Notes under the pieces: model-generated | Databases searched by the model: none | What the model saw: only the letters and a program-made list of their open reading frames with translations | What the model was told of the DNA's origin: nothing | Shown here: in pieces, positions 8,374-12,479 of the stretch | Layout of the letters: the number at the start of each line of letters is the position of its first letter | How positions within the stretch are numbered: position 1 is the stretch's first letter | NCBI GenBank assembly: GCA_007695115.1 | Contig: REEK01000058.1 | Location: 1-32,653 of the forward strand | Direction of reading: 5' to 3' | DNA from: Sphaerobacteraceae bacterium | Lineage (GTDB): Bacteria > Chloroflexota > Chloroflexia > Thermomicrobiales > Thermomicrobiaceae | DNA: 32,653 bases | Translations under genes and position numbers: made by a program

Positions 8374-8400
8374 AGTTTGAACAATCGAATGTAAGCTTTT

Positions 8401-8501
8401 GCTCATCAAGAGTGGTGGAGGGAAACGGCCCTTTGAAACCCGGCAACCAGTGCTAACGCACCAGGTGCCAATTCCGGCGGAGAAATTCCGCAAGATGAGT
8501 A
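8401..8501 (+). promoter_or_regulatory. SAM-I (S-box) riboswitch aptamer
   Basis: This has the conserved S-box core: CTCATCAAGAG at the 5' side, GGAGGGAAACGGCCC, the kink-turn region TGAAACCCGGCAACC, GGTGCCAATTCC, and a closing GATGAG. CTCATC (8402-8407) pairs with GATGAG (8494-8499) to form P1. The aptamer binds S-adenosylmethionine and turns downstream methionine genes off. GTGGAGG at 8415-8421 is identical to the 3' arm of the following terminator. It could therefore pair with CCTCCAC (8514-8520) as an antiterminator when SAM is absent. Confidence 0.93.
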
Positions 8502-8894: not shown

Positions 8895-10016
8895 GTGACC
8901 GTCACGACTCGAACTATCCGACGATGCTCGAAGGCAACCGCGACTATTGCAACTCCATCCGATCCGCTGGTGACCGAGCTCGGCCAGCGTCTCGATCATG
9001 CCGAAATCGCATACGAGACCTGGGGAACGCTCAACGCCCGCCGGGACAATGTCATACTGCTGATTCATGCCCTCACCGGTGACGCTCACGCCGCCAGCCA
9101 TCACCCGAAAGATGCGCCGGGATGGTTTGAGGGGATGATCGGACCCGGCAAGGCGCTCGATACCAATCGCTATTTCGTTGTCTGCACGAACCTTCTCGGT
9201 GGATGCAGCGGATCAACCGGCCCGCGATCGATCAACCCGACGACTGGCCGTCGCTACAACCTCTCCTTCCCGGCGCTCACCGTCCGCGATCTCGTGCGGG
9301 CCCAGAAGCGGCTGATCGACAAGTTGAAGATCCGCGAGTTGCACGCGGTAATCGGCGGATCACTCGGCGGTATGCAGTGCCTGGAGTGGGCGATCATGTT
9401 CCCGGATCGAGTCAACCGGATTGTTCCGATCGCCAGTTCGTCCCGATTCAGCCCGCAGGGAATCGCCTACAACGAGGTGCAGCGCCGGGCGATCCTGATG
9501 GACCCGAATTTCAACAATGGCGAATACGAGGACGACAACGGCCCGGCGCAGGGACTGGCCGTCGCCCGGATGCTGGGAATGATTACCTATCAGAGTGACG
9601 ACCTGATGTCAGCCCGGTTCGAACGTTCAACCGAGGCTCGTTACACCGAGTGGCCGGAGTTCCAGAACCGCTACGACATCGAGGGCTACCTGCACTATCA
9701 GGGTGACAAGCTCGTCAACCGATTCGATGCCAACTCATATCTGTATCTCACCCGGGCAATGGATTCGCACGACATCGGCTGGAAACGAGAGAGCTACGAT
9801 CACGCGCTGTCGATGATCGAAGCTCCTACGCTGGGCATCGGAATCTCGTCCGACATTCTGTTCCCGGCCTCGTACACCATCGAATTCGTGGACCAGTTGC
9901 GAGAGATCGGCCACCACGCCGAGTACCGGCAGATCGAATCCATCGATGGTCACGATGCGTTTCTGAAGAATTTCGAGCGCCTCGACCCGCTGGTTCGAGA
10001 CTTCATCCAGGGGTAA
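8895..10016 (+). CDS. metX: Homoserine O-acetyltransferase
   Basis: MetX transfers an acyl group, usually acetyl from acetyl-CoA, to the hydroxyl of L-homoserine, the first committed step to methionine by direct sulfhydrylation. The 373-residue protein is an alpha/beta-hydrolase fold of normal family length. The nucleophile is Ser156 in GGSLGGMQ, with Asp320 in SSDILFP and His353 in DGHDAFL completing the triad. LIHALTGDAHA and NLLGGCSGSTGP are family signatures. The start is GTG 8895 with AGGAGG (8884-8889) 5 nt upstream. It is transcribed behind the tandem SAM-I/T-box leader. No sulfhydrylase gene (metY) adjoins it, so the next step must be encoded elsewhere. Some MetX-like proteins use succinyl-CoA; sequence alone does not exclude this. 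Confidence 0.95.
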   Translation: MTVTTRTIRRCSKATATIATPSDPLVTELGQRLDHAEIAYETWGTLNARRDNVILLIHALTGDAHAASHHPKDAPGWFEGMIGPGKALDTNRYFVVCTNLLGGCSGSTGPRSINPTTGRRYNLSFPALTVRDLVRAQKRLIDKLKIRELHAVIGGSLGGMQCLEWAIMFPDRVNRIVPIASSSRFSPQGIAYNEVQRRAILMDPNFNNGEYEDDNGPAQGLAVARMLGMITYQSDDLMSARFERSTEARYTEWPEFQNRYDIEGYLHYQGDKLVNRFDANSYLYLTRAMDSHDIGWKRESYDHALSMIEAPTLGIGISSDILFPASYTIEFVDQLREIGHHAEYRQIESIDGHDAFLKNFERLDPLVRDFIQG

Positions 10017-11107: not shown

Positions 11108-11184
11108 GATCTGCCACTTCCCTTGAATACCCTTTCGGGTCGTCAATTTGCAATTCCAGAGGCGAGTTGTTATCGTGGGCGTGT

Positions 11185-11207: not shown

Positions 11208-11246
11208 CTCTATCAGTGTAGCAATGTCTGGAAGGACATCCTACAA

Positions 11247-11324
11247 GTGCGTCATTTCGTCATCACCATCACTGGCATGACTATGACTACCACGGCCGGT
11301 ACCCGGTCGGAGGTGGTTGACTGA
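11247..11324 (+). CDS. Thr/Ile/Met-rich leader peptide of the asd attenuator
   Basis: A 25-codon open frame starts at GTG 11247, with GGAAGGA (11230-11236) 10 nt upstream, and ends at TGA 11322-11324. Residues 5-19 read VITITGMTMTTTAGT: seven Thr, two Ile and two Met among the 14 residues at 6-19. These amino acids are made from aspartate semialdehyde, the product of the next gene. Ribosome stalling at these codons would control the hairpins that follow, as in the enterobacterial thr operon leader. This short peptide is regulatory and is unlikely to have another function. Confidence 0.8.
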   Translation: MRHFVITITGMTMTTTAGTRSEVVD

Positions 11325-11386
11325 CGCGCAACCATAACCGATTGAGGCAGTACCGGCAGGGGTTATATCCAACCTCTGCCGTTTTT
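11295..11386 (+). promoter_or_regulatory. asd attenuator: antiterminator and terminator
   Basis: GCCGGTAC (11295-11302, inside the leader peptide codons) is a perfect complement of GTACCGGC (11350-11357). That pairing takes up 11354-11357, the start of the terminator 5' arm. A competing hairpin TGGTTG/CAACCA (11314-11319 and 11329-11334) lies between them, over the leader stop codon. A ribosome stalled on early Ile/Thr codons would leave GCCGGTAC free. One that reaches the stop would cover or disrupt it and allow termination. Confidence 0.7.
11354..11386 (+). terminator. Intrinsic terminator of the asd attenuator
   Basis: CGGCAGGGGTT (11354-11364) pairs with AACCTCTGCCG (11371-11381), an 11-bp stem with one G-T wobble and a 6-nt loop, followed by TTTTT. 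It ends 37 nt before the asd start codon and must be bypassed for asd expression. Confidence 0.88.
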
Positions 11387-11423: not shown

Positions 11424-12479
11424 ATGGCTGAGAAGATAAGCGTGGCCGTGCTCGGCGCAACAGGGAGCGTTGGACAGCGATTCATTCAGCTCCTGCAGGG
11501 GCACCCGTGGTTCGCCGTAAACGAGCTTGTTGCCAGTGATCGATCGTCGGGACAGCGCTATGCCGATGTCACCGACTGGAGAGTCAGCGATTCGATTCCG
11601 GAGTCCGCCCGGGACATGCCGGTGAAGGGCCTGTCCGATCCGCTTGAGAGCACAATCGTATTCTCGTCGTTACCCGGCGGGATCGCACTCGAGGTCGAAA
11701 ACCGGCTTGCCGGCGAGGGTAAGTCAGTCTTCACCAACGCCAGCGACAACCGGATGGTTCCCGACGTCCCGTTGATGATTCCTGAGGTCAACCCTGACCA
11801 TGCTAGCCTGATCAACACCCAGCGCAAGAATCGTGGCTGGGACAAAGGACTGATCGTCGCCAACCCGAACTGCTCCACAATTCACCTGATTCTGGCACTG
11901 AAGCCAATCTGGGACGCGTTCGGGATCGAACTGGCCATGACCACGACGCTGCAGGCGGTCTCAGGAGCCGGGTACCCGGGCGTTCCGTCACTCGACATGA
12001 TCGACAACATCGTCCCCTACATCGGAGGCGAGGAAGAGAAAATCGAGTCCGAAACGCTGAAGATCTTCGGCAGCCTCAATGGCGGGGAGATCTCCCCGGC
12101 TCCGGTCAAGGTATCCGCACAGTGTACCCGCGTCCCGGTTCGCGACGGTCACACAGAATCGGTCAGTCTCAAACTCGGCAAACAGGCGAGTATAGATGAA
12201 GTGATCGATGCCTTCGCAACGTTCTCAGGACGTCCTCAGGAACTCGGACTGCCCTCTGCACCTGCACATCCAGTAGTGGTGCGATCACAGGCAGATCGCC
12301 CTCAGCCGGTCCTGGATCGCGATGCAGAGAACGGGATGGCGTCGATCGTCGGGCGAGTCCGCGAGTGCCCGATCTTCGATGTGAAATTCATGGTGCTCGG
12401 CCACAACACGATCCGGGGTGCCGCAGGGGCTTCGATCCTTAATGCCGAACTGCTGGTCAAGGAGGGGTACATCAGCTGA
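11424..12479 (+). CDS. asd: Aspartate-semialdehyde dehydrogenase
   Basis: The enzyme reduces beta-aspartyl phosphate to aspartate semialdehyde with NADPH, the step shared by lysine, threonine, methionine and isoleucine synthesis. The 351-residue protein starts at ATG 11424 with AAGGGA upstream. GATGSVGQRF (11-20) binds NADPH. Cys150 in NPNCST is the acyl-forming nucleophile. His243 in PVRDGHTE matches the conserved acid/base position. The spacing, the NPNCST motif and the GHNTIRGAAGAS C-terminal segment resemble the archaeal/fungal type more than the E. coli type. It lies behind the Thr/Ile/Met attenuator. Asd and hom provide consecutive steps, but here they are divergently transcribed rather than in one operon. 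Confidence 0.95.
   Translation: MAEKISVAVLGATGSVGQRFIQLLQGHPWFAVNELVASDRSSGQRYADVTDWRVSDSIPESARDMPVKGLSDPLESTIVFSSLPGGIALEVENRLAGEGKSVFTNASDNRMVPDVPLMIPEVNPDHASLINTQRKNRGWDKGLIVANPNCSTIHLILALKPIWDAFGIELAMTTTLQAVSGAGYPGVPSLDMIDNIVPYIGGEEEKIESETLKIFGSLNGGEISPAPVKVSAQCTRVPVRDGHTESVSLKLGKQASIDEVIDAFATFSGRPQELGLPSAPAHPVVVRSQADRPQPVLDRDAENGMASIVGRVRECPIFDVKFMVLGHNTIRGAAGASILNAELLVKEGYIS

Follow-up and report, generated by a model that had tools for sequence, protein, structure and literature searches.

A threonine- and isoleucine-rich leader upstream of asd in Thermomicrobiales, probably a ribosome-mediated transcription attenuator

The window, the whole 32,653-nt stretch of contig REEK01000058.1 analysed here, encodes an aspartate-semialdehyde dehydrogenase of the asd_EA type (TIGR00978, 450.7 bits against a cut-off of 301.2), and the gene divergent from it is homoserine dehydrogenase. 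The best named relatives of the genome are Thermomicrobiaceae and Sphaerobacter assemblies; the first-pass annotation, which had called the DNA Chloroflexota-like, was right, and the relatives belong to the order Thermomicrobiales and to Sphaerobacter. A SAM riboswitch at 8400–8501 (84.2 bits), the sole riboswitch within the window, lies upstream of metX (8895–10016), so that the methionine branch, close to asd and hom, is separately controlled. The features at and upstream of asd are as follows.

11148–11176, forward strand: candidate promoter TTGCAA-N17-TATCGT, a weak, by-eye reading
11230–11236, forward strand: Shine-Dalgarno-like GGAAGGA, 10 nt upstream of the leader GTG; a purine-rich site is also present in relatives
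11247–11324, forward strand: leader peptide ORF of 25 codons, GTG start, TGA stop, VRHFVITITGMTMTTTAGTRSEVVD; frame kept in relatives
11262–11303, forward strand: control-codon cluster, residues 6–19, with 7 Thr, 2 Ile and 2 Met
11293–11309, forward strand: predicted protector (anti-antiterminator) hairpin, 7 bp, loop TAC, −11.6 kcal/mol, from folding
11294–11310, forward strand: antiterminator strand 1 (region 2), GGCCGGTACCCGGTCGG, from duplex energies, covariation and folding
11313–11335, forward strand: predicted stop-codon hairpin with the stop codon in its loop, nested inside the antiterminator, from folding
11338–11357, forward strand: antiterminator strand 2 (region 3), CCGATTGAGGCAGTACCGGC, sharing CGGC with the terminator 5′ arm
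11354–11381, forward strand: intrinsic terminator hairpin, 11 bp with one G-U, covarying and present in 24 of 24 loci
11382–11386, forward strand: U5 tract of the terminator (TTTTT), read from the sequence
11424–12479, forward strand: asd, the gene that the leader would regulate

The control residues of the leader peptide are I6, T7, I8, T9, M11, T12, M13, T14, T15, T16 and T19, and the original count of 11 Thr, Ile or Met codons among residues 6–19 of a 25-codon leader was exact on recount. When the 300 nt upstream of asd were shuffled, a short ORF with seven Thr or Ile in ten residues was found in none of 2000 shuffles. A short leader ORF and a ribosome-binding site precede the gene, as in ribosome-mediated transcription attenuators. 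The candidate promoter scores under the threshold of the pattern scan, which gave no strong promoter match in the asd upstream region; relatives have a TATCGT-like hexamer 5′ of their leaders as well, and three of them (G005, G020 and G024) also show a good −35 box.

The 11-bp terminator with its T5 tract, reported from the first reading, is the only terminator-like site of the region, where 0.2 would be expected. The perfect complement noted earlier also stands: GCCGGTAC (11295–11302) pairs with GTACCGGC (11350–11357), and the CGGC of the latter is the base of the terminator 5′ arm, so that the two structures overlap as described. Only the extent of the pairing had been understated, since in the fold it spans 11294–11310 with 11338–11357. 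The leader RNA holds an intrinsic terminator and a mutually exclusive antiterminator with a common strand. A competing hairpin across antiterminator strand 1, like the protector of the window, is found in many relatives too.

To assess conservation, we collected the asd upstream region of each family and order member having a usable contig. Among families f1 and f3, the asd 5′ region was available for 24 genomes, and every one of them has a leader, a terminator and an antiterminator, which answers the conservation check proposed in the first-pass annotation, the leaders containing Thr throughout. They are 22–28 codons long, often with Ile as well (for example VRQLVIITTTGMTTTTTAGTRSEVVD, MVSLRAIITIIDGMTITPAGAQAGAVT and LATQGLAITTTITTTPAGSARWRSA); four are Thr-poor, with a best window of 4 in 10. 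In 23 of 23 relatives checked, the Thr/Ile frame is uninterrupted, has a start close to where one is expected and ends in a stop, compared with 1 and 4 for the other two frames, and the distance from the leader stop codon to the terminator is 27–35 nt in all 23 leaders. Differences between close relatives fall more often at third codon positions (97, against 60 and 62 at the others), and the structural part of the leader RNA is conserved more than the peptide. In other families of the class (20 genomes), no Thr/Ile asd leader was found with the ORF test, which the poorest of the known leaders would not pass. On the opposite strand the asd leader gives a score too (G015:C12:61772-61896, G016:C13:33981-34105 and G008:C1:1698623-1698740, all minus), as its palindromic stems would lead one to expect, and we read no separate feature there.

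The antiterminator columns contain 84.7% standard pairs compared with 75.1% in shuffles, 39 cells with two-sided changes compared with 15.2, and a covariation score of 0.290 compared with 0.138, none of these being reached in 500 shuffles; the covariation signal is lost when the partner columns are slid. The terminator is likewise conserved and covarying (22 sequences). In an alignment-free comparison, strand 1 pairs with its own strand 2 at a mean of −30.4 kcal/mol but with the strand 2 of other genera at −22.3 kcal/mol. The corresponding values for the lysC leaders described below are −31.3 (cognate) and −20.9 (foreign), for the 6 of 13 leaders located by a simple terminator finder.

How a translating ribosome would act on these structures was considered in a position model, in which RNA is blocked to 13 nt past the start of the A site (a textbook footprint) and strand 2 may or may not pair with strand 1 before the terminator 3′ arm is made; the model concerns position, not kinetics. 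In the window leader, the antiterminator is predicted to be open with the A site at codons up to 12 and closed from codon 13. All leaders behave alike, closing at codons 11–15 with an antiterminator probability near zero at the stop codon. Under this footprint, stalling at the control codons leaves the antiterminator free, and a ribosome that has reached the stop codon prevents its formation. Codons 6–13 of the window, where a starved ribosome would halt first, read I T I T G M T M, and a ribosome stalled at Thr14–16 would already mask strand 1. Since the terminator is favoured over the antiterminator at equilibrium, switching would have to be under kinetic control, like that of known attenuators. 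In contrast to the trp paradigm, most leaders are predicted to form the antiterminator when no ribosome is present.

Conservation, the reading frame, covariation and codon placement all strongly support the earlier proposal of thr-operon-style attenuation of asd. The asd leader is very probably a classical ribosome-mediated transcription attenuator, with Thr as the main signal, Ile second and Met doubtful. Under a shortage of charged tRNA-Thr (or tRNA-Ile), the leading ribosome would stall at codons 6–13, freeing 11294–11310 to pair with 11338–11357 behind RNA polymerase; this pairing would sequester the CGGC at the terminator base, and transcription would continue into asd. With sufficient Thr and Ile, the ribosome would reach the stop codon at 11322 and cover the antiterminator and the nested hairpin, upon which the terminator would fold and transcription would end upstream of asd.

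Further leaders in the order were sought with a covariance model derived from those of asd. In families f2, f4 and f5 it found leaders upstream of lysC that are rich in Thr and Ile, some also in Met (13 genomes read; for example MKTYAATTITTTTIVVISITEITTTEPVGRGVSE). In f5, asd lies directly behind lysC and has no leader of its own; in f1, where lysC is located elsewhere, no Thr-rich leader was found upstream of lysC. The simplest history would start from a lysC-asd operon under attenuation, in which the loss or relocation of lysC left the leader in front of asd. The lysC-asd leaders (L191–L203) are rich in Met, which accounts for 21 of the 192 residues in their cores and forms part of runs like AMMMVTMIGKTII and GITMMTMMITK. 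Four matches of the model were rejected: in the window's genome, C174:17967 coincides with an ORF for a small membrane peptide and C184:6228 lacks any leader-like ORF, and G014:C260 and G018:C16, inside coding sequence, are apparently chance.

Which amino acids the leaders sense was examined through codon enrichment. In the codon core of the asd leaders, Thr is enriched 5.5x (P=1e-49), Ile 1.9x (P=4e-4) and Met 2.0x (P=0.013), with P values computed as if the leaders were independent, shared descent being ignored. Control codons for the pathway end products Thr and Ile are thus conserved above chance. In the lysC-asd leaders the enrichment is 4.6x for Thr, where the core of the G022 lysC leader was cut too early and lowers the Thr count, 3.7x for Ile and 5.0x for Met. 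The first-pass annotation had the asd leader sense three end products at once; on such a reading, shortage of Thr, Ile or Met would each raise asd. All three derive from the Asd product via homoserine, two Met and two Ile codons of the window leader come no later than the switch point, and the Met enrichment of the lysC-asd leaders is strong (P=2.5e-9; runs such as TAMMMVTMIGKTII). In the asd leaders, however, the Met signal is slight (its P value uncorrected for descent) and Met is missing from many of them, several having no Ile or no Met; the Met:Ile ratio is near background, so Met may only accompany Ile; and the SAM riboswitch upstream of metX already serves Met in the window's genome. 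Triple sensing by the asd leader is therefore rather unlikely, and the proposal is supported only in part. From the codons, Thr would be the main signal of the asd leaders, Ile the second, and Met a doubtful one, while Met sensing by the lysC-asd leaders is plausible.

The covariance model of the asd leaders also matches leaders before DAHP synthase (identified with NCBIfam), in which the codon clusters are aromatic, for example WFAYYF, WYYFYF and FYWYF. The window's genome has such a leader before its own DAHP synthase (G000:C135, L267; MNGMTTDQLNIPNSGSWYYYYFTPPALLVGRSGFDR, with WYYYYF codons), followed by an antiterminator (CCTCCGGCGTTGCTGG/CCAGCAACGTCGGAGG) and then a terminator before the gene. 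About 18 members of the family share this device, and more distant versions occur in families f9 and f10. Because the sensor codons vary with the pathway on a similar scaffold, these leaders strongly support the codons as sensors. In genus g4 (L177, L178, L188 and L189), a leader on the same scaffold precedes pheS, the alpha subunit gene of phenylalanyl-tRNA synthetase; its codons read ...HHVHFSPPA, with only one Phe. When L249–L267 are compared with L001–L124, it looks as if a single nucleotide motif were read in two frames, giving ACTACTACGCCCGCCGGC in the Thr leaders and TACTACTTTAGCCCGCCGGCG in the aromatic ones (ACT ACT ACG CCC GCC GG compared with TAC TAC TTT AGC CCG CCG GCG). It is possible, as a tentative reading, that an order-wide modular scaffold exists, with a GCCGG antiterminator core, a GCAGAGG terminator and exchangeable sensors (Thr/Ile, with or without Met, or Trp/Tyr/Phe) that may be related by frame shift. 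If so, a frame shift over a common motif would be a possible route to changed specificity.

Three other explanations dispense with the Thr/Ile peptide or with regulation altogether. The RNA might be a switch that is not translated, a riboswitch or a protein-bound antiterminator, with an incidental ORF; the structure is indeed better conserved than the peptide, and the antiterminator is predicted even without a ribosome. This is very improbable given that the Thr/Ile frame with its start, stop and spacing is kept in 23 of 23 relatives, that Thr is enriched and the codons turn aromatic before DAHP synthase on the same scaffold, and that no Rfam riboswitch or T-box match appears even at E<=10. 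Slightly less probable still is that the site has no regulatory role, being an ordinary terminator close to a promoter or the place where an unrelated short transcript ends. Genes are often preceded by terminators, but here the antiterminator covaries and the codons match the pathway. That the His/Tyr-rich shifted frame of the window (HHHHWHDYDYH) is the translated one has next to no probability, since that frame lacks a start codon in the window, no more than 4 of 23 relatives have it complete, and His and Tyr do not fit asd.

The asd leader has the testable features of the general leader-peptide attenuator class and stands outside RF00506 (Thr_leader), whose covariance model gave no match at E<=10; the Rfam scan of the leader as a whole gave nothing at the gathering threshold or at E<=10. 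It resembles the thr attenuator of E. coli and the gamma-proteobacteria (thrL, RF00506) in its Thr/Ile-rich leader, its mutually exclusive antiterminator and terminator, and its aspartate-family gene. In contrast, the thr attenuator controls thrABC rather than asd, or lysC-asd in the sister families, and the ORF of the leader described here includes both the protector and antiterminator strand 1. The phylum is different and the sequence unrelated, and an independent origin is likely. The trp, his, leu, ilv and pheA/pheST attenuators follow the same logic, with the DAHP synthase leaders as an aromatic counterpart, but on other genes and with unrelated sequences. Lysine riboswitches (RF00168) and T-boxes likewise control aspartate-pathway genes of other bacteria through premature terminators; the family models of lysine riboswitch, SAM riboswitch and T-box have no match in the asd leader. 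The asd RNA motif of lactic acid bacteria is also a structured RNA upstream of asd, which is not known to have a leader peptide, and it was unmatched in Rfam scans of the window.

In published surveys, leader-peptide attenuators are found mainly in Proteobacteria and Actinobacteria (PMC2965389, PMC1262725, PMC3766115). A 2010 survey listed leader-peptide systems only in these two phyla and added one case from Firmicutes (PMC2965389), a 2013 survey of Rfam motifs, with Chloroflexi among the groups covered, proposed that amino-acid attenuators originated in gamma-proteobacteria (PMC3766115), and a study of Actinobacteria reported no Thr attenuator in that phylum (PMC1262725). The set in Thermomicrobiales, which is deeply conserved, covaries and stands before asd, lysC-asd and DAHP synthase, speaks for a greater age of the mechanism or for more origins of it. 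Our search of literature available without subscription found no paper on leader-peptide attenuation in Chloroflexota, where one broad survey might cover Chloroflexi, and no relevant paper on attenuation of asd or lysC, in agreement with the earlier remark that such control is little described in this phylum. What is new here seems to be the unusual target, asd, together with a clade in which leader-peptide attenuation appears undescribed.

For the aspartate pathway, these results suggest a division of labour, with Thr/Ile codons acting at the common step and a SAM riboswitch before metX. The leaders of asd, lysC-asd and DAHP synthase provide a defined regulon for studying attenuation in thermophilic Chloroflexota-type bacteria.
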